Shown: positions 24,520-39,696 of the stretch, piece by piece
How positions within the stretch are numbered: the first letter of the stretch is position 1
How the letters are laid out: every line of letters begins with the position of its first letter
NCBI RefSeq assembly: GCF_009763255.1
Contig: NZ_WSJB01000021.1
Coordinates: forward strand, 62,001-126,000
Direction of reading: 5' to 3'
DNA length: 64,000 nucleotides
From: Bordetella sp. 02P26C-1
GTDB taxonomy: Bacteria > Pseudomonadota > Gammaproteobacteria > Burkholderiales > Burkholderiaceae_B
Notes under the pieces: generated by a model
What the model was told of the DNA's origin: nothing
What the model saw: only the letters and a program-made list of their open reading frames with translations
The model's database searches: none
Made by a program: the position numbers and the translations under genes

Positions 24520-25578
24520 GTGTTTCCTCAACCGGATTTAATCGCAGCCTTGCGCCGTGGGTGGCCAGGCGCGGTTAAATCTGCGGGGGAGAAGTCCACA
24601 CTGCATCTTGCTGCTGATTCGATTCCGTCGGGTGAATGTGTCGCCGTTGCCACCAGCGGAGGAGCCGATTCCGCCATGCTGGCCGCGCATGCCAGCCTCA
24701 TCGCACGCGAACGCGGCGCGCCGATCATCTTGTTCCATGTCCACCACGGTTTGCAGGTGGCTGCAGATGGCTGGGCCGATCATGTGCAGGCATTGGGCAA
24801 GACACTCGGTGTGCGGGTGGCCACCGCTTATGCTCAAGTCGAAAACGATTCTGGGCTGGGCATAGAAGCCGCCGCCCGGGATGCGCGTTATTCGGCGTTA
24901 AGCGAATTGGCGCAGCGCCATGACGTTCGCCATATTCTTCTCGCCCACCATCAGAACGATCAGGCAGAAACCGTGCTGTTGCGCCTGCTGCGAGGCACCG
25001 GGCCGGAGGGGATGGCCGCTATGGCACCCTCTATGCAGCGCGATGGCATTACTTACCATCGCCCTTGGTTGGATCAAAGTCGCGCGCGCATTTTGCAGGC
25101 CGCGCAGGCCTTTGCTCAACAATATCTGTGGCACGCCGTTCAAGATCCTACCAACGCGGACCCGCGATATACACGCGCGGCGGTGCGTGAATTGCTTACG
25201 CCCGTGTTGGATGTACGGTGGCCTGGCTGGCAGAAGCGCTTGTCCAGCCACGCTCGTCATGCCGCGGAATCGAACAGCATTCTCGACGAAGTCGCGCAAA
25301 GCGATTTCGCAGGCCTGCAGCCATCGCCGGATGGCATCAGTTTTTCCCTGGCACAGTGGCGCAGCCTGTCGCCTGCACGGCAGTCGTTGGCGCTGCGTTA
25401 TTGGCTGCGCCGCAATGGCGCGCGCATGCCGACCGAGGCGCGCCTGGCAGACTTGTTGCGCCAGCTACGGCAGCTCCATAGCCTTGGTCACGACCGGCAC
25501 ATGAAAGTCGCTCATGGCGACCATGTCGTGCAGTGTCATCGCGGACGTGTCTGGATTGAGCCTCGCACCGACGCTTGA
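24520..25578 (+). CDS. tilS: tRNA(Ile)-lysidine synthase
   Basis: 352 residues. TilS modifies C34 of the minor tRNA-Ile(CAU) to lysidine, switching it to AUA decoding. The PP-loop SGGADSAM (about residues 44-51) and LAHHQNDQAETVLLRLLRGTGP are unmistakable; RPWLDQSRARIL and DPTNADPRYTRAAVRELL complete the N-terminal ATPase core. It is shorter than E. coli TilS (432), lacking most of the C-terminal domain, which is common in this order. GTG start 7 bp after accA. Confidence 0.95.
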   Translation: MFPQPDLIAALRRGWPGAVKSAGEKSTLHLAADSIPSGECVAVATSGGADSAMLAAHASLIARERGAPIILFHVHHGLQVAADGWADHVQALGKTLGVRVATAYAQVENDSGLGIEAAARDARYSALSELAQRHDVRHILLAHHQNDQAETVLLRLLRGTGPEGMAAMAPSMQRDGITYHRPWLDQSRARILQAAQAFAQQYLWHAVQDPTNADPRYTRAAVRELLTPVLDVRWPGWQKRLSSHARHAAESNSILDEVAQSDFAGLQPSPDGISFSLAQWRSLSPARQSLALRYWLRRNGARMPTEARLADLLRQLRQLHSLGHDRHMKVAHGDHVVQCHRGRVWIEPRTDA

Positions 25579-25823
25579 GCGTTAGCGCCCTCGGCGCGAG
25601 CCTGCATTGCGGGCGGGAGTAGGGCGGGCCAGCGCTAGTGTGCGGTCTCCGGCATCTGGGCAGTTGTCCGATATTTGACAAGAACTACTTGGGTGGGGAT
25701 CGCTTGCCGCTTCACGCCGTTAATCTCGCTGCTCCTCCCATTGATTGGCCTCGCGCCGCGCCTTGTGGTCGGTAGAGCCCCTTCGATGAATCTCCTTGTC
25801 AGCCTTGAGCACCGGAATCAGTG

Positions 25824-26135
25824 ATGCGCGAGCTTAGCCTGCAACAGATGTCCTTGATTGGCGGTGGATTTACCTTGAGTGTGATGGCGGCGGTCGTCGG
25901 CGCCGCGAGTTCGGTTCTTGGCTATGCCGCCCGGACCGCATTGCTTGGGACATATAGCTATGAAAAAGCGGTCGGTGTGGGTCTAAGCGGATGGACACTG
26001 CCGGTGGCTGTGGATGCGTTCGCCGCTTATCGCGGCGACATGTCCGAAGAACGCGTGGGCCTCGCAGCCATCATCGGTGTCATCTGGGGCATGCTGGCGT
26101 CCCCTTCCAACTCGAACGCTTCCCGATCGGATTAG
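25824..26135 (+). CDS. Double-glycine-leader peptide 1 (bacteriocin-like precursor)
   Basis: 103 residues. The first 15 residues, MRELSLQQMSLIGGG, fit the double-glycine leader consensus: with cleavage after Gly15, L and S fall at -12/-11, Q and M at -8/-7, I at -4 and GG at -2/-1. Such leaders direct cleavage and export by C39-peptidase ABC transporters (colicin V/class II bacteriocin type). The mature part is hydrophobic and rich in Gly/Ala/Ser with helix-packing GxxxG-like spacings (FTLSVMAAVVGAASSVLGYA; GLAAIIGVIWGMLA), suggesting a membrane-active peptide. GTG immediately upstream is an alternative start. No transporter or immunity gene was recognised nearby. Neighbours tilS and lysC are housekeeping genes, so this looks like an insertion. 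Confidence 0.65.
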   Translation: MRELSLQQMSLIGGGFTLSVMAAVVGAASSVLGYAARTALLGTYSYEKAVGVGLSGWTLPVAVDAFAAYRGDMSEERVGLAAIIGVIWGMLASPSNSNASRSD

Positions 26136-26159
26136 GGCAGGGCCGTCAGCTTACCCGTC

Positions 26160-26285
26160 ATGTTAGGCAGTATCCGCAACCGGATTGTCAACGTTGGCGG
26201 CCGCTTTGCCGTGAGCACCTCGACTGCCGTGGTGAACCACCACTTCACTGTTTCAAGAACCATTATTGGAGCTGTATGCGAGTAA
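26160..26285 (+). CDS. Possible decayed third double-glycine peptide (41 aa)
   Basis: A short open frame between the two peptides. Around residues 12-25 it reads VGGRFAVSTSTAVV, which lines up with the processing region of peptide 1 (IGGGFTLSVMAAVV) at GG, F, S and AVV. Its own leader part (MLGSIRNRIVN) does not fit the double-glycine consensus well and it ends abruptly inside the start of the next gene, so it may be a truncated or frameshifted paralogue. It could also be chance; no good ribosome binding site is visible. Confidence 0.3.
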   Translation: MLGSIRNRIVNVGGRFAVSTSTAVVNHHFTVSRTIIGAVCE

Positions 26286-26638
26286 TCAATCTTTCGGAGA
26301 CCGGCGCTGTCGTGGGTGGCGGCGGCCTAGGCGTTCATGTCGCGGCGGCAGCATTTGGGGGTGCGACGAGTGCGGTGGCCTATGCGGTCGGGGCTCACAT
26401 GGCTCGGCGGTACAACGCCGAGGAAATGATAAGTTTGGCCCCGGCAAGCACGCTTATGGCGATGATTGTCGATATCGGGATTTCCTTTGTGGACGATAAC
26501 GTTGCAGCGCGGTTGGCAATGGCCGCCTTGTTGGGTATGACCATCGGCCTTATCCATGTGTCGCCTACCGAGCGTGCGCCATCGGCCCCTTGTCCGCCGT
26601 GTCCGCCCTGTCCGTTCGGCAACTTTACCCTGACCTAG
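26276..26638 (+). CDS. Double-glycine-leader peptide 2 (bacteriocin-like precursor)
   Basis: 120 residues starting MRVINLSETGAVVGGGG; with cleavage after Gly15, I, E and V fall at -12, -8 and -4, so the leader fits less well than peptide 1 but in the same register. The body (HVAAAAFGGATSAVAYAVGA; then STLMAMIVDIGISFVDDNVA and LAMAALLGMTIGLIHV) has two or three hydrophobic segments, and the tail carries a Pro-Cys run (APCPPCPPCPFG). TTGGAG precedes the ATG at 26276. The same span in another frame is open but featureless. Together with peptide 1 this resembles a two-peptide bacteriocin pair, though immunity protein or small membrane protein are alternatives. Confidence 0.6.
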   Translation: MRVINLSETGAVVGGGGLGVHVAAAAFGGATSAVAYAVGAHMARRYNAEEMISLAPASTLMAMIVDIGISFVDDNVAARLAMAALLGMTIGLIHVSPTERAPSAPCPPCPPCPFGNFTLT

Positions 26639-26726
26639 CGGACCTCGCCTGCGCAAATCTTCACCACGCGCTAAAATACTCAGCTTTGCCTGCCCAGCCG
26701 GGGCGGGTTTCCAGCCAGAGTACGAG

Positions 26727-27992
26727 ATGTCCCTTATCGTTCACAAATATGGCGGTACTTCGATGGGCTCGGTCGAGCGCATCCGCAATGTCGCGCGTCG
26801 TGTCGCGAAATGGCATGCCGCTGGCCATCAAGTCGTTGTTGTGCCGTCGGCCATGGCCGGCGAAACCAACCGTCTGTTGGGCTTGGCCCGCGAGATTTCA
26901 ACCCAGCCCGATCCGCGCGAACTGGACATGATCGCGGCGACGGGCGAGCAGGCCAGTAGCGGTCTGTTGGCCCTGGCCCTGCAGGCCGAAGGCGTGGCTG
27001 CTCGCAGTTATGCCGGTTGGCAGGTGCCGGTGCGCACGGATTCGGCCTTTACCAAGGCACGTATCACGTCTATCGACGATGCTCGCATCCGCGCCGACCT
27101 CGACGCCGGTCGCGTTGTCATCGTGACTGGTTTCCAGGGTATCGATCCCGACGGTCACGTCACGACGCTTGGTCGTGGTGGTTCCGACACCTCCGCCGTC
27201 GCCGTTGCCGCGGCGCTCAAAGCCGACGAGTGCTTGATTTATACCGACGTCGATGGCGTCTACACCACCGACCCCCGCGTGGTGCCGCAAGCGCGCCGCA
27301 TGTCGGTCGTGTCGTTCGAAGAAATGCTCGAAATGGCCTCGCTGGGCTCCAAGGTGCTGCAGATTCGCTCGGTCGAATTCGCAGGCAAATACCGTGTCCC
27401 CACGCGTGTGCTGTCCTCGCTGACCGACCCGCTCATTCCGCTCGAAGAAGAAATGTCTTCGGGCACGCTGATTACTTTTGAGGAAGACGAAAAAATGGAA
27501 GCCGCCGTTGTCTCCGGCATCGCCTTCAGCCGCGACGAAGCCAAGATCACCTTGCTGGCCGTGCCCGACACCCCGGGGGTTGCCTACTCGATTCTCGGCC
27601 CCGTGGCCGCCGCCAATATCGACGTCGACATGATCGTGCAGAACCAGTCCGTGGCTGGCACGACCGACTTCTCGTTCACGGTCAACCGCAACGAATTCCA
27701 GCGCACCATCGAACTGCTGCGCCGCGAAGTCGTGCCCGCCGTCAAGGCGCGCGAACTGGTTACCGACGACAAGGTTGCCAAGGTGTCGATCGTTGGCATT
27801 GGCATGCGCTCGCATGTGGGCGTGGCCAGCTTGATGTTCCAAACGCTATCGCAAGAGGGCATCAACATCCAGATGATCAGCACCAGCGAGATCAAGACTT
27901 CGGTCGTGATCGAAGACAAGTACATGGAGCTGGCAGTGCGCTCGCTGCACAAGGCTTTTGGCCTGGACCAGGCGCCTGCTGAAAAAGCTTAA
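26727..27992 (+). CDS. lysC: Aspartate kinase
   Basis: 421 residues. Phosphorylates aspartate at the entry of lysine, threonine and methionine synthesis. N-terminal [17 protein letters not shown] is the kinase signature; [20 protein letters not shown] and [19 protein letters not shown] follow. The C-terminal regulatory part has two ACT domains ([58 protein letters not shown]). This is the stand-alone, lysine/threonine-feedback type. It is followed by tRNA-Ser, the usual order in Bordetella relatives. No lysine riboswitch was seen upstream. Confidence 0.97.
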
Positions 27993-37302: not shown

Positions 37303-39696
37303 TTAGTTACGCAGCGGTTTACCCGTTTTGAGGGTGTGTTCGATCCGAGCCTGTGTCTCGGGGGTACGCAGCAGCGCGACGAATTCCCGCCGTTCCACAG
37401 CGAGCAGCCATTCCTCGTCCACGTGGGTGCCGGCATCGACTTCGCCGCCGCACAATGCGACCGCCGCGCTGCGGGCCACGCGGTAATCGTGCGCGCTGAT
37501 CATGCCGCCTTCCCGCATGTTGACGAGCATCATTTCCAGATTGGCGATGCCCGTGCGGCCGGCGACAGGGATGTTGGTGACGGGCAACGGGGGCGCATAG
37601 CCGGCGTCGGCCGCGGCACGGGCCTGGCGGATTGCCACCCACAACAACTCATCGGGATGGAACACCACCGGATCATGGGCTCGCGCGTACCCCATCTCGA
37701 TCGCTTGCAAGGCGCTCTTGGAAACCTGCGCCGTCGCGATTTGCTGGAATACCGGCTGTATGAACGGGAAAACCTCGTTAGGCGTCGCCGTGTGGGCCGC
37801 CAATTCCGCCGCGCGCGCGGCCAGTGCCTTGCTGCCGCCCCCTGCTGGCACCAGGCCAACGCCGGCTTCGACCAGCCCGACATAGCTCTCCAACGCCAGC
37901 ACACGATGGCTGCAATGCATGAGAAATTCGCATCCTCCCCCCAGCGCCATGCCTTGCACGGCGGCGACCGTGGGCACGCGCGCGCGCTGCAATGACAACG
38001 AGGCACGCTGGAATTTCGCGACGGTGGCTTCGAGGACATCGAATTGTCCGGCGGCGCACGCTTGCACGACTTGCGACAGATTCGCACCCACCGCGAAGGG
38101 CGCCTCGTGCCAGATGACGAGCGCATCCAGATGGCGTTCGCTATGTTCGACCGCGTGCATGACACCGTCGAGCACTTCGTCGCCGATGGTATGCATCTTC
38201 GATGTGAATGAAAGAATGCCTATGCCCGCGTCCACCTCGGGTAGATGCCACAGTCGTACGCCGGCGTTCTCCCACAGCGTGATGCCGCGGTCGCTCGCCG
38301 TCTCGCCGATCAGACGTTCTGGGAAAAGCTGCCGCTGGTACACGGCAAGAGACGGGCGAGGATGCTGCTTGCCATCGCGTGCGGAATACGATCCCGCCGC
38401 GTCATGTACACCGGAGCGATCAGCCGCCCGTACCCAATCGGGAAGCGGCGCATCGCTCATTGCCGTGCCGGCTGCGATGTCTTCGGCGATCGCATCCGCA
38501 ATACCCTGCCAGCCGGCCGCTTGCCAAGTTTCAAAGGGTCCTTGCGCCCAACCGAATCCCCAACGCATGGCGAGATCCACATCGCGCGCGTTATCAGCAA
38601 TGTGTTCAAGCTGCTTCGCGCTGTAGTGGAATATGTCGCGAAACAGGCTCCACAGGAACTGCGCCTGCGGATGGGTGCTGGCGCGCAGGGACGCAAAACG
38701 TTGAGCGGGATCGCGCTGCTTTAAGATCGCCTCGACCTCGTCGGCGACCGTACCGGCGGCAGGCCGATAGTCGCGCGCGGCGAGATCCAGGACCTGGATT
38801 TCTTTGCCTTGCTTGCGATAGACACCGATCCCGGTCTTTTGCCCCAAAGCGCCTTTCTCGATCAGGGCGTTCAACCACGCGGGCAGCTGAAAATAGCGGT
38901 GCCAGGGGTCATCGGGCAAATTGTCACGCAAGGTCGATACCACGTGTGCCAGCGTGTCCAAGCCCACCACGTCGGCCGTGCGATACGTCGCGCTTTTAGG
39001 GCGGCCGATTTTCGGGCCGGTTAAGGCATCCACCTCGTCAAAACCCAGTCCCCGACGTTCGGTGTGATGCATGGCGGCCAGGATAGCGAAGACGCCGATA
39101 CGGTTTCCGATGAAGTTCGGCGTATCCTGCGCGCGGATGACGCCTTTGCCCAGCCGGCTTGTCAACCAACTTTCCAAATGATCCAGCACGACTGGCTCGG
39201 TATAGGGAGTCGCGATCAGTTCGACCAGACGCATATAGCGCGGGGGGTTGAAGAAATGTACGCCGCAGAAGCGGGTACGCAACGACTCCGGCAGCGACTT
39301 GGCCAGCTCGCCGATGGACAGGCCCGAGGTATTGGACGCCAGAATCGCATCCGGCGACACGTGCGGCGCGATACGAGTGTAGAGCGCCGTCTTCCAGTCC
39401 ATGCGCTCGGCAATCGCCTCGATCACCAGATCGCAGTTGCGCAACTGATCCAGATGGTCGTCGTAGTTCGCGGGGGTGATCAGGGCCAGACGCGAAGGGC
39501 TCGCCAGGGGGGCAGGCTCCAGTTTCTTCAGGCCCGCCAACGCTTTTTTGGCGATCCCGTCGCGATCGCCTTCCTTGGCCGTCAAGTCGAAGAGGGTGAC
39601 GGCGATGCCAGCGTTGGCGAGATGAGCGGCGATCTGCGCGCCCATGACACCGGCTCCTAGGACGGCGGCGTGCTTGACGATAAATCTATTGTTCAA
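37303..39696 (-). CDS. 3-hydroxyacyl-CoA dehydrogenase / enoyl-CoA hydratase, FadN-type
   Basis: 797 residues, TTG start with a strong AGGAG upstream. Domain order is dehydrogenase first: NAD-binding Rossmann (AAVLGAGVMGAQIAAHLANA), LASNTSGLSIGELAKSLPES, FCGVHFFNPPRYMRLVELI and FIGNRIGVFAILAAMHHTE (about residues 1-300), then a second 3HCDH helical module and a C-terminal crotonase/enoyl-CoA hydratase domain (VAAVQGMALGGGCEFLMHCS; GLVEAGVGLVPAGGGSKALA, about 530-700). This is the reverse of E. coli FadB and matches FadN-type enzymes. It forms a beta-oxidation pair with the thiolase. Confidence 0.93.
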   Translation of the reverse strand: MNNRFIVKHAAVLGAGVMGAQIAAHLANAGIAVTLFDLTAKEGDRDGIAKKALAGLKKLEPAPLASPSRLALITPANYDDHLDQLRNCDLVIEAIAERMDWKTALYTRIAPHVSPDAILASNTSGLSIGELAKSLPESLRTRFCGVHFFNPPRYMRLVELIATPYTEPVVLDHLESWLTSRLGKGVIRAQDTPNFIGNRIGVFAILAAMHHTERRGLGFDEVDALTGPKIGRPKSATYRTADVVGLDTLAHVVSTLRDNLPDDPWHRYFQLPAWLNALIEKGALGQKTGIGVYRKQGKEIQVLDLAARDYRPAAGTVADEVEAILKQRDPAQRFASLRASTHPQAQFLWSLFRDIFHYSAKQLEHIADNARDVDLAMRWGFGWAQGPFETWQAAGWQGIADAIAEDIAAGTAMSDAPLPDWVRAADRSGVHDAAGSYSARDGKQHPRPSLAVYQRQLFPERLIGETASDRGITLWENAGVRLWHLPEVDAGIGILSFTSKMHTIGDEVLDGVMHAVEHSERHLDALVIWHEAPFAVGANLSQVVQACAAGQFDVLEATVAKFQRASLSLQRARVPTVAAVQGMALGGGCEFLMHCSHRVLALESYVGLVEAGVGLVPAGGGSKALAARAAELAAHTATPNEVFPFIQPVFQQIATAQVSKSALQAIEMGYARAHDPVVFHPDELLWVAIRQARAAADAGYAPPLPVTNIPVAGRTGIANLEMMLVNMREGGMISAHDYRVARSAAVALCGGEVDAGTHVDEEWLLAVERREFVALLRTPETQARIEHTLKTGKPLRN

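Follow-up and report, generated by a model that had tools for sequence, protein, structure and literature searches.

Two adjacent genes lying between tilS and lysC, P1 and P2, encode hydrophobic precursors with double-glycine leaders and belong to a diversified set of fifteen leader-bearing precursors, encoded at four loci of the same genome (G000), where a single C39-type transporter is found on another contig. Judging from these sequences, P1 and P2 are very probably cleaved and exported by this distant type I system. The reading that we consider best as a whole, in which the peptides would leave through the C39 system, attack competitors in the manner of microcin V and be controlled as one regulon, is rather probable; an action of P1 and P2 against bacteria, taken by itself, is slightly favoured. 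The leaders, the cores, the transporter and a common upstream element are read directly in the DNA, and from them we infer cleavage, export, co-regulation and antibacterial action. The window referred to below is the whole stretch of 64,000 nucleotides that was analysed.

The P1 and P2 genes and their leaders

P1 (25824..26135, + strand, ATG start) encodes a double-glycine-leader precursor of 103 residues, of which residues 1-15 form the leader MRELSLQQMSLIGGG and the predicted mature part comprises 88 residues (8.95 kDa); a GTG codon is also found in frame, one codon 5′ of the ATG, at 25821. P2 (26276..26638, + strand, with GGAG preceding its ATG start) encodes a second such precursor of 120 residues, with MRVINLSETGAVVGG as leader 1-15 and a predicted mature part of 105 residues (10.58 kDa) that ends in a Pro-Cys tail. 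Both ORFs, which an initial annotation of this DNA had described as small ORFs with double-glycine N-termini, are present and intact, and the base composition by codon position across them is weakly coding-like. When G14-G15 are counted as -2/-1, P1 carries L-12, S-11, Q-8, M-7 and I-4, the close fit to the double-glycine consensus that had been claimed for the first peptide. P2 carries I-12, N-11, E-8, T-7 and V-4 in an identical 15-residue register, which is weaker at -11 (Asn) and -7 (Thr). The Pro-Cys tail, rightly pointed out as unusual, is seen in P2 only and is absent, as judged by eye, from the other 21 peptides of the family. Both peptides are hydrophobic (68-71%), their glycine content is 11.4% in P1 and 9.5% in P2, and they match each other in BLASTP with an E-value of only 0.049. 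As a side observation, a 215-aa open frame (25991-26638, + strand) overlaps P1 out of frame and ends as P2, and automatic gene callers may choose this wrong start for P2, thereby hiding its leader.

The rarity of such N-termini was measured with a leader rule (LIVM at position 4, DEQ at 8, IVLA at 12, G at 14 and GAS at 15) that was modelled on the consensus and drawn up after the peptides had been seen. It is satisfied by 3 of the 2,426 start codons in the window that open at least 60 aa, namely P1, P2 and one start within a longer frame at 37977(-), and by 2 of 10,992 starts in 13 other loci that served as control. Small hydrophobic ORFs are frequent in GC-rich DNA, and on this ground P1 and P2 might be taken for chance ORFs with leader-like N-termini. 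Such an explanation is hardly credible in view of the control count and of the homology among the peptides, and it is contradicted by the family profile matches and the leave-one-out results on the cores, which are described below.

Searches against known families returned little for these peptides. No match above cut-off was obtained with the Pfam bacteriocin families for P1, P2 or any other of the 22 peptides, nor with the NCBIfam bacteriocin families for the 20 of 22 that were searched. Regarding the Pfam MccV family (PF17508), P1 and P2 are without match, and one of the 22 peptides, g2_C4 from a related genome (G002), matches at E 0.0013, its 19.7 bits falling short of the cut-off of 27. 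Two weak matches of P2 to sugar-phosphate isomerase models, TIGR00689 (E 0.00055, with 19.9 bits where 88.3 would be needed) and LacAB_rpiB (E 0.035), lie far below their cut-offs and were rejected. A plasmid collection searched with P1 gave no match at E 0.01, and the profile, when compared with solved structures, reached nothing better than E 0.08, with matches to four entries' worth of an engineered tandem-repeat protein. The structure predicted for P1 from the P1-P2 alignment has four helices and is too poor for use (mean pLDDT 48.2, pTM 0.27).

The segment between tilS and lysC

The neighbours of the two genes, both identified by family models, are tilS on the left (24520..25578, + strand) and lysC, coding for aspartate kinase, on the right (26727..27992, + strand). 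The spacer between them measures 1,148 nt here, 149 nt in G001, 110, 119, 238, 247 and 85 nt in five other relatives, and 438 or 465 nt, according to the chosen lysC start, in G002, where the profile finds no peptide match in the spacer. The stretch without counterpart in the measured relatives (25579..26647) runs from the tilS stop codon to a conserved block preceding lysC, its right edge being set by eye, and the peptide-bearing segment is absent from all 7 relatives measured (of eight, G008 being left out), in agreement with the proposal that the peptides were inserted at this place. Its GC content (60.4%) is close to that of the window (60.1%), and the best DNA similarity between the insert and seven other loci has an E-value of 0.036. 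In the G002 spacer (L104), long inverted repeats, recognised by eye, stand in place of the peptide genes.

An immunity gene was looked for in the P1-P2 unit and none was found: apart from P1 and P2, the ORFs of 50 aa or more between 25579 and 26650 all overlap these two, out of frame, in an extension of a frame or antisense. Nor does the list of surrounding ORFs contain a transporter, as the first description had stated. A terminator and a sigma-70-like site on the + strand were looked for at P1-P2 and none was found, and nothing reached the gathering score in Rfam.

A family of leader-bearing peptides

A profile (A1) built from 14 peptides and run on nine genomes of the genus gave 15 matches at four places in G000 (two in the window, five on C24, six on C1 and two on C8) and 7 at four places in G002 (four on C21 and one each on C4, C6 and C2). 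Eight of these matches, 2 in G000 and 6 in G002, lie outside the training set, with E-values from 1.1e-7 to 0.019. When P1 alone is used as a query in its own genome, P2 is found at E 3.4e-5 and three C24 places at 1.5e-4, 0.004 and 0.2; identity to P1 among the family peptides is 14-27%. Across the 22 peptides, the leader columns hold G at -2 in 22/22, L/I/V at -12 in 22/22, V/I/A at -4 in 22/22, E/D/Q at -8 in 19/22, L/I/M at -7 in 20/22 and G/A/S at -1 in 21/22, residue -1 being G in 16 and A in 4. At the DNA level, the alignments between peptide loci are short (53 nt between C4 and C2 of G002, 33 nt between C6 and C24, 26 nt between C2 and C24), and one further short alignment falls inside the C21 cluster of G002. 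It was also observed that the five-peptide C24 cluster has in its middle, on the opposite strand, a gene for a 700-aa autotransporter-type protein (L008:10179-12281, - strand; TIGR01414 barrel, 5.8e-56).

The cores were compared after removal of the leaders, with leave-one-out profiles run against 1,788 background segments. Under these conditions, 17 of 19 cores rank first, the failures being C1_d (rank 3) and g2_C21b (rank 20). Of the 15 leader-bearing precursors of G000, 13 were treated in the alignment as core-type, and all but one of them (12 of 13, P1 and P2 included) pass the test. A profile trained on the six G002 cores only places P1 at rank 2 and P2 at rank 5, both above all background; with it, 6/13 G000 cores beat all background, and in the reverse direction 4/6 do so. 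Three of the 22 leader-bearing ORFs are without the shared core (C24_a at rank 87, C1_c at rank 458 and g2_C21a at rank 173).

These results bear on the possibility that P1 and P2 are decaying or unexpressed copies that remained after the family had dispersed, an idea in keeping with a position found in none of the 7 measured relatives, with the failure to find a terminator or a + strand sigma-70-like site, and with the lack of an upstream element belonging to P2 itself. We give it little credence, as the ORFs are intact with leaders in register, their codon-position composition is weakly coding-like, and their cores are recognised by the profile from another species. A stronger version, according to which the ORFs would be what is left of a larger, unrelated gene after its decay, had been named beforehand as an outcome that would refute the proposal; it is contradicted by the leaders in 15 precursors and by the leave-one-out result for 12 of 13 cores.

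The arrangement of the family is also relevant to the initial annotation's suggestion of a two-peptide, class IIb bacteriocin. Two adjacent leader-bearing genes and hydrophobic cores would suit such a system, which we nevertheless regard as very unlikely: P1 and P2 are 2 of 15 peptides, of which the four loci in G000 hold two, five, six and two, G002 has single genes (3 of its 7), so that members stand alone or in groups of 2, 4, 5 or 6, and the shared immunity gene expected in the operon was not found. The mature P1 and P2, with 88 and 105 residues, are moreover long for class IIb peptides. The earlier interpretation is thus retained for the double-glycine export signal and for a C39 transporter encoded elsewhere, and given up for the pairing.

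The C39 transporter operon

The export machine had been expected elsewhere in the genome, and the lack of any C39 transporter had been named as an argument against the whole proposal. In fact, the C39 peptidase family gives one match in the genome (5.2e-35), on another contig (C1), which together with the leader register supports the view of the leaders as export signals. At this locus (L009), genes for an HlyD-type adaptor, a C39-ABC transporter and a TolC-type channel follow one another on one strand, and behind them lie six small ORFs, all of which start with leader-like N-termini and are separated by gaps of just 46-128 nt. The catalytic triad of the transporter is intact (C45, H118 and D134), with spacings of 73 and 16 that are identical to those of the C32/H105/D121 triad reported for CvaB of the microcin V system (PMC9746304). 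Solved relatives include 4s0f (1.5e-97) and 6v9z (9.5e-97), which go by the name PCAT1 (PMC8277102). A scan of genome contigs with the transporter gave three loci that are 29-30% identical over about 200 residues. NCBIfam assigns the HlyD, transporter and TolC proteins to families of type I secretion, in each case with a score below the curated cut-off; for instance, the NHLP bacteriocin export transporter model (TIGR03796) is matched with 519 bits and its cut-off of 853.3 is not reached.

The transporter locus has the same position in both G000 and G002, close to the same 637-aa protein and to genes that we take to be rplU and rpmA. In G003 (L121), the stretch behind the 637-aa protein has a tRNA-Pro and no HlyD gene, which suggests that the place is an insertion spot. 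Near the TolC gene, both genomes also carry an acidic leader-bearing ORF (L009:4660-4902 and L060:9252-9551, both - strand), which has a single strongly hydrophobic segment towards its C-terminus and lacks the family core; a common partner or a protection factor is possible.

A shared upstream element

Ten upstream regions were compared, eight of peptide genes (P1, C24_a, C24_b, C24_d, C8_a and the three G002 single genes) and two of the transporter operons. The best 12-mer common to them includes GTCYKATTTT or a near form and begins 132-191 nt 5′ of the peptide starts and 234-240 nt 5′ of the HlyD starts. Its score of 156.6 was equalled in 0/40 control sets drawn from 122 other upstream regions (mean 131.3, highest 139.5) and in 0/40 Markov sets (highest 138.2). 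When the P2 region is added, the score is 165.0, where ten shuffles reach 143.0 at most; this region has no convincing element of its own. The copy of P1, GTCCGATATTT (25666..25676, + strand), begins 158 nt before its ATG, and the copy of C8_a departs from the consensus. Shared descent of the upstream regions could explain part of the common element, because two of the G002 loci have a 53-nt stretch in common. A second block is not claimed: the downstream 8-mer scored 98.1 against 98.0 for the best shuffle, the downstream 12-mer fell under its best shuffle, and the upstream 12-mer, although it scored 113.8 where none of 15 shuffles went beyond 108.1, lies at scattered distances.

Distribution among genomes

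With one genome per species, P1 used as a query against 101 genomes at E 0.01 finds matches in no genome other than G000 and G002. Six of the nine genus genomes give no match to the peptide profile at E 0.05, and G001 gives one weak match (0.0047) that begins at profile position 9. The full-length transporter is likewise found in 2 of the 9 genus genomes, G000 and G002 (84% identical), the same two that have the peptides, a co-occurrence resting on two positive genomes; other transporter matches within the genus are partial and about 30% identical. To judge from the flanking genes that were seen, G000 and G002 have no scattered peptide position in common.

At the level of the bacterial family, the transporter is found at E 1e-120 or better in 21 of 268 genomes, the 19 beyond G000 and G002 being 47-53% identical save for G266 at 39%. 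The peptide profile at E 0.001 reaches only G000 and G002 among the 268, both of which were a source of its training rows, and at the 19 other transporter loci it gives one match under E 0.01 (0.0029 at L064). At 13 of these loci (L064-L068, L071-L073, L075-L078 and L080), a leader scan around the transporters picked up small ORFs, mostly of 40-61 aa, whose leader has VSGG or ISGG at its end; these are apparently other cargo families. In a sample of the order, 3 of 399 genomes match the profile, namely G000 and two outsiders in both of which the match adjoins an HlyD-type gene.

Proposed export and function

In the mechanism that we propose, the C39 peptidase domain of the transporter encoded on C1 would recognise residues 1-15 of each precursor and cleave behind residue 15; the mature hydrophobic peptides of 88 and 105 residues would exit through the HlyD-type adaptor and the TolC-type channel. 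The fifteen precursors at four loci would form one regulon through the common upstream element. PCAT substrates are described as having a leader with positions such as L(-12), E(-8) and L(-7) and an end in GG, GA or GS (PMC8277102); P1 and P2 have leaders of this type, weaker in P2 at -7 and -11, and a triad-bearing transporter is encoded in the genome.

As to the job of the mature peptides, a microcin-V-like attack on the membranes of competing bacteria appears likeliest, because the lengths of P1 match those of microcin V, both peptides are hydrophobic and one relative weakly matches MccV. P1 falls within the range of about 5-10 kDa used to define class II microcins and P2 lies slightly over; a PCAT, a membrane fusion protein and TolC are encoded in one operon, on the other contig, and no nearby cognate immunity protein was found. 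Class II microcins have an immunity gene, and P1 and P2 are not filed among them because none was found in the unit. This also counts against the microcin reading itself, as does a glycine content below the microcin average, given as 23.8% across 15 microcins (PMC10233263).

A less probable alternative is that the same transporter exports a co-regulated set of double-glycine peptides that do not kill and act as community or biofilm factors or in self-lysis. The failure to find an immunity gene in the unit, the narrow spacing of the C1 precursors, the many paralogues in one genome and the precedents of EbfG1-4/PteB in Synechococcus (PMC4997328) and NapABC in a Neisseria island (PMC11798529) all speak for such a role. 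On the other side, the sequence diversity of the family (14-27% identity to P1) is judged better suited to an arms race, and P1 has the size given for microcin V, 103/88 aa (PMC10233263). We also put forward, tentatively, a broader view, in which one transporter with many cargoes would serve a combinatorial secreted repertoire and not separate toxin-immunity pairs. About fifteen fast-diversifying, scattered peptides, mostly of about 90-110 residues, linked by the common upstream element and without individual immunity genes, might then act in self/non-self discrimination or community control.

According to a review of 2022, no more than 15 microcins had been confirmed, all of them from Enterobacteriaceae (PMC10233263); later papers widen the range of class II microcins inside Enterobacterales and describe screens of candidates from bacteria associated with plants. 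In the open-licence literature, no title among the matches listed concerns such a peptide family in this bacterial family. If the proposal is true, a large natural library of diversified precursors with one matching transporter would exist outside Enterobacteriaceae, the survival of a producer of many such peptides without dedicated immunity genes would become testable, and it would be seen how many peptides escape neighbourhood-based mining because their transporter is distant.

Comparison with known systems

The closest likeness is to microcin V (CvaC) with CvaA/CvaB/TolC, whose precursor of 103 aa and mature peptide of 88 aa (PMC10233263) are matched by P1, which also has a leader of the GG/GA-cut type; as in G000, that system consists of a C39 transporter, an HlyD-type adaptor and a TolC-type channel. 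By contrast, no adjoining immunity gene was found here, fifteen precursors lie at four loci, glycine is less abundant and the peptide core has no Pfam MccV match above cut-off. Double-glycine peptides with a C39 peptidase are also grouped in the acquired nap island of Neisseria (NapABC), which differs in its cationic peptides of 16-36 aa when mature, its FapF-type channel, its immunity-like gene and its link to autolysis (PMC11798529). The anti-Bacteroidales peptide toxins of Coyne et al. 2019 likewise combine a double-glycine motif with the lack of an immunity protein, as reviewed (PMC10233263), and come from another phylum than the host of P1 and P2. Two further systems are likened to P1 and P2 by description: EbfG1-4 and PteB of Synechococcus elongatus, a group of double-glycine proteins with one C39 transporter whose role is in biofilm formation (PMC4997328), and the colicin-V-like peptides of Xylella fastidiosa, which also have adjacent MccV-like genes, double-glycine signals and export machinery, with three adjacent genes where the present site has the P1-P2 pair (PMC10233263).
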